A DNA stretch of 45,107 bases. It comes from Eubacteriales bacterium. Its GTDB lineage: Bacteria > Bacillota > Clostridia > Monoglobales > Firm-18. Positions 9,924-33,009 of the stretch are shown here, one piece after another (the first letter of the stretch is position 1; each line of letters starts with the position of its first letter). Both the position numbers and the translations under genes were made by a program. The notes below the pieces were generated by a model. That model saw only the letters and a list, made by a program, of their open reading frames with translations, was not told the DNA's origin and did not search any database. Location of the stretch: positions 1 to 45,107 of the forward strand of contig JAQVDK010000006.1 of assembly GCA_028697835.1 (NCBI GenBank). Reading direction: 5' to 3'.

Positions 9924-10610
9924 TTATTCAAGGATGGCTTCTTTAAGCCTGCTTTTTTCTTTAATTACAATTTTCCGATGTCCTTTAAGCTCAATTAGTC
10001 CTTCCTCTTGAAAGTCCGCAAGCTTGCGGCTTAGGGTTTCCTGGCTCATACCAAGCTGGGAAGCAAGGTCGCTTTTGGACATGGGCAAAACAATCTCCTT
10101 TTTGCCGCTTGACAATTCCAATATAACCTGCGCTACCCGCTTCGTTACAGGGCTTAGGCTGATGGCTTCAATTTGGCTTTCCGCCTTTTCCAGCCGTCGG
10201 GACAGCTCGTCCATTACCTTTAAGGCAATTGACGGATATTTTGTCATCAGCGCTTTTAGCCTTTCCCCTTGAAGCACGCACATTGTGGTATCCTCTAAGG
10301 CTTGCGCAAAGTCGGTCAGCGCAAGGGATGAAAAAAGCGAAAGCTCGCCAATAAACTCGCCCGGTCCAACTACACGCAGAACCTGCTCTTTGCCGCTGCT
10401 GCTTAAACGATATAGCTTTACACGCCCTGTATGTAGTATAAATAAAGTGCCGCCTTTGTCCCCTGCCCGGTAAACCATTTCTCCTTTTTTAAGGCTGCGG
10501 GAGATGGAAATTTGGGCAATTTCCGCCATTTCCTCGTGTGTAAGACCTTTAAAAATAGGCACATTCTCAATGCAGCTTGCATGGTGACCGCAATTTTGGC
10601 AATTTTGCAT
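9924..10610 (-). CDS. Crp/Fnr family regulator with an FNR-like N-terminal Cys motif
   Basis: cNMP-like domain FKGLTHEEMAEIA...AGDKGGTLFILHTGRVKLYRLSSSGKEQVLRVVGPGEFIGELSLF; HTH DLASQLGMSQETLSRKLADFQEEGLI; N-terminal CQNCGHHASC. The ORF-track start at 10691 lies upstream of the likely promoter, so MQNCQNC (10610) is the probable start. Confidence 0.9.
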   Translation of the reverse strand: MQNCQNCGHHASCIENVPIFKGLTHEEMAEIAQISISRSLKKGEMVYRAGDKGGTLFILHTGRVKLYRLSSSGKEQVLRVVGPGEFIGELSLFSSLALTDFAQALEDTTMCVLQGERLKALMTKYPSIALKVMDELSRRLEKAESQIEAISLSPVTKRVAQVILELSSGKKEIVLPMSKSDLASQLGMSQETLSRKLADFQEEGLIELKGHRKIVIKEKSRLKEAILE

Positions 10611-10649: not shown

Positions 10650-10679
10650 ATTATATCTTGATAAACCGGCAAATGTCAA
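10650..10679 (-). promoter_or_regulatory. Promoter of the FNR-like gene
   Basis: Minus strand TTGACA (10679-10674), 18 nt spacer, TATAAT (10655-10650). Confidence 0.7.
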
Positions 10680-10727: not shown

Positions 10728-11171
10728 TTAGCTGTGGTCGTCTTTTTCGGCCGCCATAGCTTCCGCTTTTGTTTTGTGTATTGTTCCGTGGGGGTGCTGG
10801 GGCGGTGCATAAATAGAATACAGCTTTATGGGCTTGCTTCCCGTATTAATCAAATTATGCCACTTTCCTGCGGGTATGATGATAATATAGTCATCAAAAA
10901 CTTTTTCATGAAAATCAAGTTTGTCCTTGCTGTCGCCCATTTTAACAATTCCCTGCCCTTGCTCAATGCGAATGAATTGGTCAAGGTTGGGGTGCATCTC
11001 CAAGCCGATATCCTCCCCCGGTTTTATGCTCATCAATGTAAGCTGCAAATGTCTCCCGGTCCATAGCGCAGTGCGAAAAGCATAGTTGCGTTTTGTAATT
11101 TTGTCAATATTGACCACAAATGGCTGTGGGCCATAGTCTTTAATCTTGATAAACGATTTCCATATGTTCAT
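10728..11171 (-). CDS. Cupin domain protein
   Basis: 147 aa; MSIKPGEDIGLEMHPNLDQFIRIEQGQGIVKMGD...IIIPAGKWHNLINTGSKPIKLYSIYAPPQHPHGT. Confidence 0.88.
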   Translation of the reverse strand: MNIWKSFIKIKDYGPQPFVVNIDKITKRNYAFRTALWTGRHLQLTLMSIKPGEDIGLEMHPNLDQFIRIEQGQGIVKMGDSKDKLDFHEKVFDDYIIIIPAGKWHNLINTGSKPIKLYSIYAPPQHPHGTIHKTKAEAMAAEKDDHS

Positions 11172-11377: not shown

Positions 11378-11578
11378 TCAAAGGGAGCTGAAGCAAAGCT
11401 GTGCTGGCTTCCCTTCGCTTATTAGCTTTAGCATATCTGTATACTCCAGACTTCCTTCTTGTACAACAAAGCCTTCTTTCTCGAGCAATTTTACAAAACG
11501 TTTTATTCTACCGTCTTTTTCACACATAGGTTTACAAACTTCGTTTATATTTGAGTATATTTTGTCAATATCATTCAA
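11378..11578 (-). CDS. Small hypothetical protein
   Basis: 66 aa ORF MNDIDKIYSNINEVCKPMCEKDGRIKRFVKLLEKEGF...; upstream aaGGAG-like RBS; no family recognised. Confidence 0.45.
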   Translation of the reverse strand: MNDIDKIYSNINEVCKPMCEKDGRIKRFVKLLEKEGFVVQEGSLEYTDMLKLISEGKPAQLCFSSL

Positions 11579-11672: not shown

Positions 11673-11723
11673 AAAAGGCCAGCTGTTATCAAGCTTTTTA
11701 TGCTTGATAACAGCTGGTCTTTT
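11673..11723. terminator. Long hairpin, bidirectional terminator
   Basis: AAAAGGCCAGCTGTTATCAAGC-tttttat-GCTTGATAACAGCTGGTCTTTT, ~22 bp stem, A/T flanks on both sides. Confidence 0.85.
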
Positions 11724-11737
11724 ATGCTTTTGTGTTT

Positions 11738-11971
11738 TTATTTATCCTTCACTCGAGATTTTTTTACCTCGTATCCCATCTTGGTTATGGCATTTTCAAT
11801 ATCGTTTATAGTTATTTTTTCATCGTCAAAGTTTAAGATTACCTTGCTTGAGTTAAACAGCACATCTGTGCTTTCTTTGTCCACTCCCTCTAAGGCTTTT
11901 ATTGCGCCTTCGATTTTTTGTATGCATGATGGGCAGGTTAATGCTTCCAATTGAATTGTTGCTTTTTTCAT
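11738..11971 (-). CDS. Stand-alone heavy-metal-associated (HMA) domain protein
   Basis: 77 aa, MKKATIQLEALTCPSCIQKIEGAIKALEGV with CxxC metal-binding motif. Confidence 0.88.
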   Translation of the reverse strand: MKKATIQLEALTCPSCIQKIEGAIKALEGVDKESTDVLFNSSKVILNFDDEKITINDIENAITKMGYEVKKSRVKDK

Positions 11972-11995: not shown

Positions 11996-13849
11996 TTAAT
12001 ATTTTAATCTGTATCGAAGAAGCCTCATTCCGTTTATAATGACCGCTAAAATGCTCGCTTCGTGTACCAGCATGCCGATGGACATATTCATCCACTCGCC
12101 AAATAACACGCTGGCAAGCAGGACAAGCACTACTCCTACTGCAATAATAATATTTTGACGCATATTCCTTGCAGTTGCTTTTGCCAAGCCCAGCGCATGG
12201 GGCAGGCGGTCAAACTCTGAATTCATAAGCACAACATCCGATGTTTCAATGGCTACGTCGGTGCCGTTTCCCATTGCAATTCCAATTTGCGCCAAGGCAA
12301 GCGACGGGCTGTCATTGACGCCATCTCCCACGAAGGCAACAATTTTTCCTTCGTCCTTCAATTTTTCGATATATTCGGATTTGTCCTTTGGCAGCATGCC
12401 CCCATAAGCCTTTGTAAGCCCCAGCTCTTGCGCTGCCAAGTCAACTGCTTTTTGGTTATCCCCCGACAGCACTACCAAGCTTTTTACGCCCAGCTTTTTT
12501 AGCTTTTTGAGGTTTTCTGCAACTTTTGGGCGGATTTGGTCGCGAATTCCCACAAGGGCTTTAAGCTGGCCGTCAATAGCTGTAAGAACAAGGGAGCTTC
12601 CGACATTTTCAAACCTTTGAATATCCGACAGCGCTTTTTCGCTCAGCTGCACATTTTCCTGTTCCATTAGAAAAACATTGCCAACCGCCACCCTGTGTCC
12701 GTTTACACGTGCCACAACCCCGCCGCCTTTTATAACGTCTGTTTTTTCGACCGAATATAGCTTGATATTCCCTATATGCTCTACAATTGCTTTGGCAAGC
12801 GGATGGTCGGATTCGCCTTCAACGCTTGCAAGATATGCCAAAACCTCATCGCTGTTTTGCGCATATATTTGCATGTCCACTACCTTCGGCTTTCCAACCG
12901 TTAATGTTCCTGTTTTATCAAACACAATGGTGTCTGTCCTGCTAAAATCGTGAATTACCTCGCTGCCCTTTAGCAAAACCCCATGCCTTGCCCCGTTTCC
13001 AATGCCTGCAACGTTTGAAACCGGCACGCCAATTACAAGGGCTCCCGGACAGCCTAAAACCAGCATTGTAATTGCAAGCTCGGTATTTCGTGAAAATATC
13101 CACACAACAGCGGAAAGTACCAAAACCACAGGAGTATAGTATTTTGAAAATTTATCAATGAAACGCTCGGCTTCGGACTTGGAGTCCTGCGCCTTTTCCA
13201 CCAGCTCGATAATTTTTCCGAAGGTGGTGTCCTCGCCTACACGGTCGGCAATAATTTGAATTGTTCCGTTTTCTAAAATTGTTCCGGCATATACCTTCGA
13301 GCCTTTCTTTTTGCCTACGGCAGCAGCCTCGCCGGTAATGCTTGCTTCATTGATATGTCCCTCGCCTTTTAAAACAGTTCCGTCAACAGGTACCTTTGCA
13401 CCGGTTTTAACAAGCAAAATGTCCCCCACATCAACCTCGTCCACGTCCACTTCTTCAAACTCGCCGTTTTCCACCTGTTTTAAGGCGCTCTCCGGCGCCA
13501 TTTCGGTCAATTCCTTTATGGCGGAGCGTGTTTTGCTTAGTGTGCGCTGTTCCAAAAATGAGCCGAATAAAAACAAAAAGGTGACAATGGCGGACTCTTC
13601 AAGGTTTTTAATTAAAAATGCTCCAATCACCGCAATGGTAACCAAAACATCAATGCTGACAACCTTTACCAAAAGCGCTTGATATGCTTGGATTGCAATT
13701 GGCGCAAGCCCCAATAAAGAGGCGATGGCAAGGGGCAGGGTGGCGGCGGTTTCATTTTTAAACCCTAACTTTGCGATAAATCCAATTACAATTAAAATTG
13801 CACTGATAAGCGTTATATGATTTTTTCTTTTTAATATAAATCTTTGCAA
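11996..13849 (-). CDS. P1B-type heavy-metal translocating ATPase with CPG motif
   Basis: DKTGTLTVGKP phosphorylation site, SDHPLAKA, VGDGVNDSPSLALAQIGIAMGNGTDVA; TM motif LGCPGALVIGVP; no N-terminal HMA domain. Confidence 0.92.
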   Translation of the reverse strand: MQRFILKRKNHITLISAILIVIGFIAKLGFKNETAATLPLAIASLLGLAPIAIQAYQALLVKVVSIDVLVTIAVIGAFLIKNLEESAIVTFLFLFGSFLEQRTLSKTRSAIKELTEMAPESALKQVENGEFEEVDVDEVDVGDILLVKTGAKVPVDGTVLKGEGHINEASITGEAAAVGKKKGSKVYAGTILENGTIQIIADRVGEDTTFGKIIELVEKAQDSKSEAERFIDKFSKYYTPVVLVLSAVVWIFSRNTELAITMLVLGCPGALVIGVPVSNVAGIGNGARHGVLLKGSEVIHDFSRTDTIVFDKTGTLTVGKPKVVDMQIYAQNSDEVLAYLASVEGESDHPLAKAIVEHIGNIKLYSVEKTDVIKGGGVVARVNGHRVAVGNVFLMEQENVQLSEKALSDIQRFENVGSSLVLTAIDGQLKALVGIRDQIRPKVAENLKKLKKLGVKSLVVLSGDNQKAVDLAAQELGLTKAYGGMLPKDKSEYIEKLKDEGKIVAFVGDGVNDSPSLALAQIGIAMGNGTDVAIETSDVVLMNSEFDRLPHALGLAKATARNMRQNIIIAVGVVLVLLASVLFGEWMNMSIGMLVHEASILAVIINGMRLLRYRLKY

Positions 13850-13871: not shown

Positions 13872-14174
13872 CTATGAGTGATATGCCCTGTCCATTTCCT
13901 CAAGCATATTATATACCGCCTCATAGCTTTCGCATACATCGTTGGGCACTGCATATCTGTCAGTAACTTCACGAAGCTTTGCAAACTCCACATCAAGATT
14001 TGGTTTTTCTGTGCCCGCTTCTTTGATTTTCTCGGCGATTTTTTCAAAAACTTCTCGCACCTTGTGAAATTCCGGATGACTGCCCCCATGAACCCTTGAT
14101 ACAACAGGTACGTACTGACTTAACTTTTCAAGGTGTTTTTCCTTTGCCGTATTAAATATAACTTGATTTGACAT
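13872..14174 (-). CDS. Small protein related to RIC/hemerythrin-like iron-sulfur repair proteins (tentative)
   Basis: 100 aa; LSQYVPVVSRVHGGSHPEFHKVREVFEKIAEKI with conserved His residues; first gene of the operon with the ATPase and HMA genes. Confidence 0.55.
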   Translation of the reverse strand: MSNQVIFNTAKEKHLEKLSQYVPVVSRVHGGSHPEFHKVREVFEKIAEKIKEAGTEKPNLDVEFAKLREVTDRYAVPNDVCESYEAVYNMLEEMDRAYHS

Positions 14175-14207
14175 TTTTAATACCTTCTTTCTTGCTTTGT
14201 TGTTTAT

Positions 14208-14213
14208 ATTGTA
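14208..14213 (-). promoter_or_regulatory. -10 element of the RIC-like/ATPase/HMA operon
   Basis: Minus strand TACAAT; no good -35, as expected for an activator-dependent promoter. Confidence 0.5.
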
Positions 14214-14235
14214 TCACGGATTCAAAGAAAATAAA

Positions 14236-14249
14236 TTGACCTAAGTCAA
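14236..14249. promoter_or_regulatory. FNR/CRP-type operator TTGAC-N4-GTCAA
   Basis: TTGACCTAAGTCAA, perfect 5-bp dyad arms, 22 nt upstream of the -10, centre about -41.5 from the inferred start. Confidence 0.65.
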
Positions 14250-14280
14250 AAATTTATATAAATTTTGGCTAAAAGAAATA

Positions 14281-14319
14281 AAACCCCAAACACCGCATAA
14301 ATTAAGGCGTTTGGGGTTT
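14281..14319. terminator. Hairpin in the intergenic region between addA and the RIC-like operon
   Basis: AAACCCCAAACaCC...GGcGTTTGGGGTTT. Confidence 0.6.
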
Positions 14320-14447
14320 CAAAAGTGATTGTAGGTACTGGAGTTTTAGGTTTATAAAATTTCATCTAACCATATAAACACGAAAAAGAATATATTTCGG
14401 AAAATCTTTAGAAAAATTGTGTTATAAAGCCCTGCGTCATACATAAT

Positions 14448-14490: not shown

Positions 14491-17400
14491 AAATAAGCGG
14501 ATATACTACGGTTTCCTTAACAGGCTTCTTTAAAACCTTCGACAGCCCTTTTGCATAAAATTCCACTTGCTTTTCATACTCCGGTCTGTCTATGTTTCCT
14601 GTTTTATAGTCTATTATTACAATTTCCCCGTCCTCTTCAAAGTAGCAGTCAATAACACCCTGAAGGAGGACTGTTTCGTCTTTTACGCTCTCGTCAATGC
14701 CCGGGAAAATTTCCAAGGCGGAAACATCCGTAAAGAATTTAACCTCGCGTTCTATTTTGTCCGCGTTTTTCATGCGCATTCCTATATCGCTTTGGAAAAA
14801 GGCTAAAATTGCACCCGTGTCAAGGGCAAAAACAAAACTTTCGTCCAGCATGCCACGGTCCACCATGTCTTTTATTTGACCTTCTATCTCACCTAAAGAG
14901 TTGGTTTTGGCAAGGTCGATGTTTTGCATTACAAAATGGATTATGGTACCCCGCAGCGCCGCAGAAAGCCTGTTGGTTTTCTCGATAAAGTCGGGTTTTT
15001 TAAGGGTTGGAAGATACTCTGCGCCTTGGGCGGCCTTGCTTACAGGCAGCTTTGACGGAATAAACGCCGCATGTCTGTAAGGGTAAGTATAGCTTAAAAC
15101 CTCATCTGTCTGCTTTGAGTAGTGCGAAGGCGTTTCATCTTCAAAAAAGCTGACTTGGCTGTCTATTCCAACCCTGCTTTGCAGTATAATATCTTCTGCG
15201 GTGTGCAGATGTATATGTGTGTGCAGGCGGTCGCCCAAAGCAAGGGCAAGCCAGTCCAAAAAGGTGTTTTGCTGTGCCACAATGTATGGCGAGACGGATG
15301 TGTTTTCCCATTGCTCCATCTTTTTTTGAAGGTTTGCGCAGCTTCCCACAATAAACAGCATATCCTTCGGACGTGTTAGCGCCACATATAGGACACGCAT
15401 TTCCTCCGAAAGCATGGAATATAGCTTTTTTTGGCTTATGGCAAGCTTTGATACGGAAGGGTATCTGATATTTCTGTCCAAATCCGTAAAGTTCGCCCCT
15501 ATGCCAAGGTCCAAATCATGCAGTATATTGCCGCTTTGGTCCGACTTGTTAAACCGCTCGCCGCACCTTACCAAAAATACAACCGGAAACTCCAACCCCT
15601 TGCTTTTGTGAATACTCATCATACGCACTACATTGTCGTTTTCCCCCACAACCTTGGCAACGGTGTAGCTGGGGTTTTCTCTCATGGCGTCTATGTAGTT
15701 TAAAAATTCAAATATACTCTTGTACCCGTCGGCTTCAAACCGCCCTGCCCGCTCGCACAGCAAATTAAGGTTTGCCACCCTTGTTTTGCCGTCAGGCATG
15801 GCAGCAACAAAGGAAATATAACCCGTATCGCTAAGAATTGCACGAATTAAAAACTCTATGCTTTCCCTTGCCGCAATCTGGCGGTAGTGGTTTAGCTTTT
15901 CAAGGAATTTTTGGCATTTTTCCGTATCCGTTTTGCAAACTGCGTCATAGAACGACTCCTGGCTGTTTTGCCTGATATGGGCAAATTCTTCGTCCGTAAA
16001 CATAAACATGGGGCTTCGCATAACTGCCAGAAGGGGTATATCCTGCATTGGGTTGTCTATAATTTGTAAAAATGACAGCACTGTTGCTATTTCTATGGTA
16101 ACAAGAAAGTTTCCACCCTCGTCCTCACAGTAAAACGGAACTTGGTAGAGGGCAAGCTGCTGGGCAAAAATGTCCGACACTCCCTTGTTTTTTCGTGCAA
16201 GTATTGCAATATCACTGTATTGAATGGGGCGAGTCTGTCCCGTTTCCTCGTTTACTACAATATGGGGCTTTTCCACTTCAACAAGGCTTACAATCCTTTT
16301 TGCAACAAACATTGCCTCCCGCATGATTTCCGTGTATAAAAGCTCTTCCTCGGTAAACTCATTCTCGTCGTTTTCCTCCAGCTTTTTTTCGATGACATGA
16401 AACTCAACACCCTTGGGATGGATGCTGTGTTTTCGCCCGCAAACAAGGCTGTGCCCCTCGTTGTAGTCAACGCTTCCCACGCTTTTGCTCATAAGGCGGC
16501 CAAACACAAGGTTTACAAAATCAATAATGCTTTGGGCACACCTGAAATTATGGGAAAGGTTAATCTGCATTCCATGTGAGCTGTCCGATGCGTATTTGGC
16601 GGATTTTGAGGTGAATATGTTTGGCTGTGCGTTTCTAAAGCCATATATGCTTTGCTTAACATCGCCCACCATAAAAAGGTTATCCCCTCGGGATATGGAC
16701 TGAAAGAGAGCCTCTTGAACGCCGTTTGTGTCTTGATACTCATCAACCAAAACTTCCTCAAACCGCTCTTTTAGCTCGTTTTTTATATCCTCAAAGCTTA
16801 AAAGCTTTAGCGCAAAGTGCTCCAGGTCGTTAAAGTCCAAAAGGTTTTTGCTTCTTTTCAAAGCCGAGTAAACCTCGTCAAAATCGCTTACTATTTGGCA
16901 AAGCTCTTTTATAATGGGATAAAGGGCCGCATTGTCCTGCTTTAGCTGGTGGGACGTTGCATAAAATATGCTCTTTAGCTTTGCCACTTGCTTTTTGACG
17001 GTGTTTCGAATGTTTTGCACAAAAGAAACCGCCCACTCGTCTGCATCCCTATCCTTTCTTGGAAGGCGCTCAAAGGCAATGCCGTGTATAAAAGCCCTCA
17101 TCTCGTCCCATATGCCGCTCTCCATTTCGTAAAGCCTTTTTAGCTGACTTTGCTCAAAGATAAAATTCTCCAGGTAGCTGTCTATTCCATTTCCCCCTTG
17201 TATTACCTCGATTGCCTCGTCATATGCCGATACCATGCCGGAAATTTCGTCCTTTAGGGACGATATGATAAAACCGCTCCATTTTAAAAAGCCGTCCTGT
17301 GAAATATAGCTTTCGGCGGCGTCGGCAAGCCACCTTTGGGGGTCTGCCGTGCTTTTTGTAAAATTATATATACTTAAAACAAGATTTGACAGAGGGGTTT

Positions 17401-32299: not shown

Positions 32300-32331
32300 T
32301 GTGAAACAAGAGTTTTTGTGAGGTGATTGCA

Positions 32332-33009
32332 ATGCTAAGCGGAGAAAATTTGCAGTTTTTAAAAAACAGCCTGACTTTTTGGGATAAGCTTACCAAACAG
32401 CAGGCGGATTACATAGTGTCAAATACAAGCCTTTTGCAATACAGGCAAAAGGAGCATATACACAGCGGAATCCATGATTGTATTGGCGTTGTTGTTGTTA
32501 AAAAGGGGCGCCTTAGAAACTATATCTTGTCCGACGAGGGCAAGGAAGTCACTTTGTTCAGGCTAAACAGCGGCGAGGTTAGCGTTCTTACGGCCTCTTG
32601 CGCTGTGGAAAGCGTAAATTTCGACATTCAGGTTGATGCAGAGCATGACAGCGATATATTCATAATCAAGCCGGAAGTGTTTAAAAAGCTTTGCGCAGAG
32701 AATATCTATGTGGAAAACTATTTTTTCAAAACCTTGGCCTCTCACTTTTCCGATGTGATGGCGGCTATGGAGCAGATACTTTTCCTAAGCTTTGAAAAGC
32801 GTTTGGCGTTGTTTTTGATTAACCAGTCGGAGCTTGACGGCTGTGAATACATCCGCATGACTCACGAGTCCATTGCAAACCACATGGGAAGCGCCAGAGA
32901 GGTGGTCTCCCGCATGCTCAAATACTTCCAAAAGGAAGGAATAGTCGAGCTTTCAAGAGGAGATATCGGTATAATAAACCGAGAAAAACTGGAGCGTATC
33001 GCCGAGTAG
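32332..33009 (+). CDS. Crp/Fnr family transcriptional regulator
   Basis: Crp-type N-domain; HTH RMTHESIANHMGSAREVVSRMLKYFQKEGIVELSRGDIGI. ATG 32332 with upstream AGGTGA. Confidence 0.88.
   Translation: MLSGENLQFLKNSLTFWDKLTKQQADYIVSNTSLLQYRQKEHIHSGIHDCIGVVVVKKGRLRNYILSDEGKEVTLFRLNSGEVSVLTASCAVESVNFDIQVDAEHDSDIFIIKPEVFKKLCAENIYVENYFFKTLASHFSDVMAAMEQILFLSFEKRLALFLINQSELDGCEYIRMTHESIANHMGSAREVVSRMLKYFQKEGIVELSRGDIGIINREKLERIAE

Follow-up and report, generated by a model that had tools for sequence, protein, structure and literature searches.

A perfect FNR-type palindrome at 14236–14249, the three-gene operon preceded by it and the FNR-type regulator encoded at 9924–10610 belong together, with high probability, as one regulatory core, and the regulator looks like a dedicated local activator of this operon and not like a global FNR. 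This assignment is based on the architecture of the locus, its conservation, and the co-occurrence and co-variation of regulator and operator, all obtained by sequence analysis of a stretch of 45,107 nt (the window) in a 1.79-Mb assembly and of related loci.

Architecture of the operon and its promoter

The relevant features, all on the minus strand, are:

14279–14321, minus strand: hairpin with U-rich tail, predicted terminator of an addA-like gene (-24.6 kcal/mol, z -6.9)
14236–14249, minus strand: FNR-type operator, minus-strand reading TTGACTTAGGTCAA, centre at -41.5, conserved in the 77-region footprint
14208–14216, minus strand: extended -10 TGATACAAT; the footprint regions are enriched in TGn-TANNNT at this position
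14201, minus strand: putative +1, placed 7 nt after the -10
14183–14188, minus strand: ribosome-binding site AGAAGG before the ATG at 14174, read from the sequence
13872–14174, minus strand: short RIC-derived protein, 100 aa, without di-iron ligands
11996–13849, minus strand: P1B-type ATPase, 617 aa, CPG in TM4 and HExS...N in TM6
11738–11971, minus strand: HMA (CopZ-like) metal-binding protein, CPSC motif
11679–11717, minus strand: predicted terminator hairpin closing the operon (-32.7 kcal/mol, z -10.6)
10728–11171, minus strand: cupin protein; homologues adjoin the module in other loci
10650–10679, minus strand: sigma-A promoter of the regulator gene, TTGACA-18-TATAAT, 12/12 match
9924–10610, minus strand: FNR-type regulator, Cys 4, 7, 13 and 111, recognition helix GMSQETLSRKL

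The palindrome (TTGACCTAAGTCAA at 14236–14249) is separated by 22 nt (14214–14235) from a minus-strand TACAAT hexamer (14213–14208), exactly as described in a sequence-only reading of this DNA. With the last base of the -10 set at -7 and +1 at 14201, the dyad centre (14242.5) falls exactly at -41.5, where that reading had placed it at about 41.5 bp upstream of the inferred start; its statement that a recognisable -35 is lacking is borne out by the promoter listing of the window, which contains no TTGACA-like hexamer 16–18 nt upstream of this -10 on the minus strand. Class II sites of E. coli FNR are centred at -41.5, and the TTGA-N6-TCAA dyad at this position, the extended -10 and the weak or absent -35 are shared with FNR/CRP class II promoters. 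These systems differ from the present one, in which a single dedicated target operon is found, the regulator gene lies nearby and the FNR cysteines are incompletely conserved in the family. The operon itself extends from 14174 to 11738, as had been proposed, and ends in the strong hairpin at about 11717–11679. An addA-like gene lies upstream on the same strand, and the predicted terminator in between (14279–14321) insulates the operon from it.

Within 45 kb the dyad by itself is weak evidence and not decisive, and neighbours with two mismatches occur in the window at chance frequency. A second perfect TTGACN4GTCAA was not found in the 45-kb window; the only other perfect TTGAN6TCAA, at 16733, is located within a coding gene, so that the claimed lack of a further copy in the intergenic regions holds. 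The 1.79-Mb assembly contains two copies of the perfect TTGACN4GTCAA, the second within a murB-like ORF, and the perfect composite of dyad, 22 nt and TANAAT occurs once, at the operon promoter. When one mismatch was allowed, the composite gave one match in the home genome, equal to the reversed-pattern control, and we therefore claim no wider regulon. What makes the dyad significant is its position and its conservation.

Conservation of the operator

A 76-residue stretch around TM4 of the ATPase (CPGALVIGVPVSNVAGIGNGAR) retrieved 80 loci, which derive mainly from Bacillota, with a few from Spirochaetes and Fusobacteria, one each from Synergistetes and Anaerolineaceae and two from Methanoculleus; in most of them the short RIC-like protein, the ATPase and the HMA protein are encoded consecutively. 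Together with the window and one relative these loci provided 77 readable upstream regions, among which a perfect TTGAN6TCAA is present in 44 (mean of dinucleotide shuffles 1.5, maximum 5) and is followed at a distance of exactly 22 nt by a TATAAT-like hexamer in 35 (shuffle mean 0.025, maximum 1), these counts being non-independent as several loci are near-identical copies. The footprint comprises 43 distinct operator cores. The spacings also peak at 27 nt, mainly because another TANNNT shares one base with the first, and two loci (L067 and L106) show the 27-nt spacing without a close -10 at 22. Even the most distant relative checked (G056), whose ATPase is 50% identical and which encodes a full-length RIC, retains the -41.5 position with TTGATTTGCGTCAC and TACAAT.

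In relatives, the same dyad/-10 arrangement is found upstream of fnr as well and, in the case of plasmids, upstream of dps. Three plasmid loci of Enterococcus and Listeria (L147, L148 and L152) carry independent FNR-type sites at -41.5 before dps and fnr and an additional site just upstream of the ATPase gene, all within about 5 kb. No dyad was found in L069, L094, L107 and the archaeal loci, though the operon is kept there, which implies that other control exists; the two Methanoculleus contigs (L137 and L141) contain the operon of short RIC, ATPase and HMA genes with neither dyad nor FNR homologue. The phylogenetic footprinting that had been suggested as a check thus lends strong support to the operator, and the recurrence of the same switch before the same genes in anaerobic and food-borne bacteria and on plasmids argues that it is very probably real.

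The probable reader of the dyad

Three full-length CRP/FNR proteins are encoded in the genome. That at 9924–10610 combines a cNMP-binding-like domain (PF00027) with a Crp-type HTH (PF13545) and hence belongs to the CRP/FNR superfamily; its gene, on the strand of the operon and 1.1 kb downstream of it, has its own promoter, whose 12/12 match to the sigma-A consensus (10650–10679) is unusually strong for a regulator gene. A 66-aa ORF (11378–11578) with two cysteines (CKPMC) and no family match lies between the operon and the cupin gene. A second member of the superfamily adjoins hcp (see below), and the third (32323–33009) has a CRP-like AREVVSR helix with a predicted preference for TGTGA.

The locus set contains 26 CRP/FNR homologues at E<1e-25, nearly all of which adjoin the module. 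Co-occurrence was analysed in 47 genomes that carry the module without an adjacent regulator. At the same orthologue cut-off (E<1e-25), an orthologue of the regulator is present in 28 of 31 dyad-bearing genomes, compared to 4 of 16 dyad-less ones (p=1e-5), and three of these four exceptions (L116, L121 and L083) do carry a dyad on inspection, which had been missed by the first scan. A further link is provided by co-variation. An Arg at helix position 180 has been connected with G at operator position 3 (Rodionov et al., PMC1274295), and among 54 partly related regulator/operator pairs G3 half-sites were found post hoc in 4 of 9 pairs with Arg180 and in 0 of 45 without (p=0.0004). One Arg180 regulator (L082), for example, is accompanied by TGTGATCCAAATCACG at the same operator position. 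The window regulator itself has Gln at position 180, and its operator T at position 3. The code is loose, since five of the nine Arg180 regulators still face T-type sites. On these grounds the 9924–10610 protein is very probably the regulator reading the dyad, as had been surmised, and the suggested class II activation by an FNR-type regulator gains support from footprint, co-occurrence, co-variation and the placement of HcpR elsewhere. In the literature, we found no report of FNR or Flp control of this ATPase; the matches were general papers on Listeria plasmids and iron export.

The sensor and alternative interpretations

In the window regulator, C4, C7 and C13 (CxxCx5C) together with C111 occupy the FNR positions, and E-xx-SR is retained in the helix. 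These properties would suit a global FNR that senses O2 through a [4Fe-4S] cluster and has the operon among many anaerobically induced targets. Against this reading, which we consider unlikely, stand the single composite site in the genome, with one to a few in most relatives, and the 26 homologues, in which C13 and C111 alone are invariant and several have no N-terminal cysteine besides C13 but 6–10 histidines. The tail before C13 is often His-rich and ranges from CCHHC to ten histidines, and the NCBIfam FNR model scores the window regulator with 90 bits at a cut-off of 228. The anaerobic trigger envisaged in the sequence-only reading is therefore no more than a candidate, as the four FNR-like cysteines of the window protein are not matched by invariance in the family. 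Two FNR homologues with an N-terminal run of 6–9 histidines (L086:4436-5251 and L091:4445-5251) are divergent from the ATPase gene and share with it a common intergenic operator region. The sensor pattern fits the two-cysteine FLP proteins or direct metal sensing. A metal-responsive activator of the FNR fold, sensing directly via its Cys/His-rich N-terminus, is a version of our explanation in which the signal is fixed, and a doubtful one: the local, dedicated wiring to a metal pump, the variable His/Cys-rich tails before the invariant C13 and the same site at fnr and dps on plasmids speak for it, whereas no residue pattern beyond the two cysteines is conserved and two-cysteine FLP-type proteins are described as redox-responsive (PMC5039431), their cluster chemistry being disputed (PMC5039431).

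The dyad also resembles the HcpR1 consensus wyTTGACnnnnGTCAArw, and in some anaerobes the HcpR targets include RIC (dnrN) genes (PMC1274295); on this view the operon would belong to a nitrosative-stress regulon. This assignment is very improbable: the hcp gene of the same genome (C30:3476-5083) adjoins the other CRP/FNR protein, whose helix (ARPSLSR) is of the HcpR2 type and which comes with a perfect GTAACATTTGTTAC site; HcpR proteins are devoid of the FNR cysteines (PMC1274295) present in the window regulator, and the RIC-like protein is devoid of a di-iron site. HcpR was accordingly rejected as the dyad reader, given that hcp is accompanied by a separate HcpR2-type regulator and a GTAAC site of its own and that the window regulator has no hcp link. 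The nitrosative trigger, also envisaged earlier, becomes less likely with HcpR residing at hcp with its own GTAACN4GTTAC site. The unit in question (G000:C30:3476-5527; L035:1477-1490, L185:3539-3552) consists of the HcpR2-type regulator beside cupin-hcp with a perfect GTAACATTTGTTAC, in agreement with the 2005 HcpR2 prediction. The chance that the palindrome is fortuitous, or the -35 of a plus-strand promoter (TTGACC-17-TAAATT), is close to negligible, even if a promoter-like 9/12 match starts at 14236 on that strand and mismatched palindromes occur at chance rate in the window. A fortuitous origin was rejected on the basis of the 77-region footprint, with dyad and exact spacing conserved in dozens of loci, and the -35 because a plus-strand transcript would meet no coding gene ahead of the addA-like gene, which is oriented the other way.

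Products of the operon

For the short RIC-like protein, a helical bundle is predicted with confidence (pLDDT 95). Its sequence matches that of S. aureus ScdA, which also ranks first in a fold search, where the match is weak (E 0.005, TM 0.65). The di-iron ligands of YtfE are H84, H129, E133, H160, H204 and E208 (PMC9268430). None of the six is retained in the alignment: H84 is substituted, and the segments that hold H129, E133, H160, H204 and E208 are missing (YtfE numbering). The NCBIfam RIC model yields 47 bits at a cut-off of 205, and the conserved residues of the short family are H29, H33, E35 and C81. The first gene product is, judged by these data, a shortened RIC derivative that has lost all six di-iron ligands and not a working RIC/hemerythrin, which corrects the earlier label 'small RIC/hemerythrin-like protein'. 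Compared to the RIC proteins YtfE and ScdA, the relation in sequence and, weakly, in fold is thus opposed by a length of 100 aa and the missing ligand segments.

The ATPase scores 549 bits against TIGR01525 (cut-off 346) and contains DKTGT, TGE, GDGxND and a CPx-type TM4, which upholds its earlier designation as P1B ATPase. P1B pumps possess CPC or SPC in TM4. Here, TM4 reads CPG in all aligned members, in place of the SPC of P1B-4 enzymes, and is followed by a distinctive PVSNVAGIGNGAR segment. TM6, the last membrane helix, is closest to that of the P1B-4 CoaT (7qbz), with a closely matching VHExSxLxVxxNxxRLL and HEAS aligned with the HEGS of CoaT, a variant of the HEGxx motif. In the HMA protein, CPSC is invariant among the homologues.

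Plasmid-borne relatives and the putative metal substrate

A related ATPase is encoded on 451 of 72,556 PLSDB plasmids, mostly of Enterococcus, Lactococcus, Leuconostoc and Listeria. On plasmids of Enterococcus, Listeria, Leuconostoc, Lactococcus and Staphylococcus its gene adjoins FNR, Dps and HMA genes; in some loci FetAB and a cupin also lie beside it, and one Enterococcus copy is close to CadD as well. FetAB is an iron exporter. Globicatella, Enterococcus aquimarinus and two Clostridia-type MAGs share the module DNA at 98–99.5% identity, and across L070, L071, L072, L073 and L090 identities of 94–99.5% are observed between Lactobacillales isolates and Clostridia-type MAGs. These values indicate either contamination of the MAGs or recent transfer.

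Export of a transition metal is the most likely function of the operon. Fe(II) heads the candidates, given the Dps and FetAB genes found beside the operon in relatives; we rate the chances of Fe(II) as about even, and the HMA protein and its CopZ likeness could equally point to Cu, Zn or Cd. The P1B-4 ATPase PmtA of S. suis exports Fe(II)/Co(II) (PMC7012047).

Relation to known systems and proposed mechanism

With the FLP proteins (FlpS of Streptococcus suis, FlpA/B of Lactococcus) the regulator shares the FNR-like helix and a pair of invariant cysteines, of which the first is N-terminal and the second belongs to the effector domain; FlpS, however, controls arcABC (PMC5039431), whereas here a regulator with a Cys/His-rich N-terminus has a P1B ATPase operon as its target. 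The HcpR1 regulons have in common with it the operator consensus TTGACnnnnGTCAA and RIC-type targets (PMC1274295), but the present operon lacks hcp, its regulator has cysteines and HcpR is a different protein in the genome. Heavy-metal P-type ATPases of unknown substrate are described from Listeria plasmids (PMC8508797), and may include the related CPG-type ATPase, which is encoded on plasmids of Listeria and Enterococcus next to genes for FNR, Dps, FetAB and cupin; that paper mentions neither the regulator nor the operator.

From these data we infer binding, activation, signal, metal and transport direction in the following scenario. The 9924–10610 protein would be produced constitutively from its own consensus sigma-A promoter, and the operon promoter, a -35-less class II promoter with the dyad as its operator, would depend on it. 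The regulator might become competent once its Cys/His-rich N-terminal sensor is loaded, either with an O2-labile Fe-S cluster or with a directly bound metal. In the loaded state it would bind TTGACTTAGGTCAA at -41.5 and contact RNA polymerase at the extended -10, thereby turning on one operon for the short RIC-derived helical protein, the CPG-type P1B ATPase and the CopZ-like HMA carrier. Such wiring would represent a dedicated local switch rather than a global anaerobic regulon. Going further, we can only speculate that the ensemble is a self-contained metal-detoxification module which is mobile and widespread in Bacillota. Its FNR-fold activator, with a Cys/His-rich tail, would be a dedicated sensor of a metal, probably Fe(II), and would turn on both a CPG-type P1B exporter and a di-iron-less RIC that serves as partner of pump or carrier instead of in cluster repair.

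With a conserved operator, a named regulator and a fixed set of genes, both signal and substrate are accessible to direct tests. If the proposal is true, an FNR-fold protein would act as the local switch of one metal operon, and a member of a di-iron family would have been conserved after loss of its metal site.
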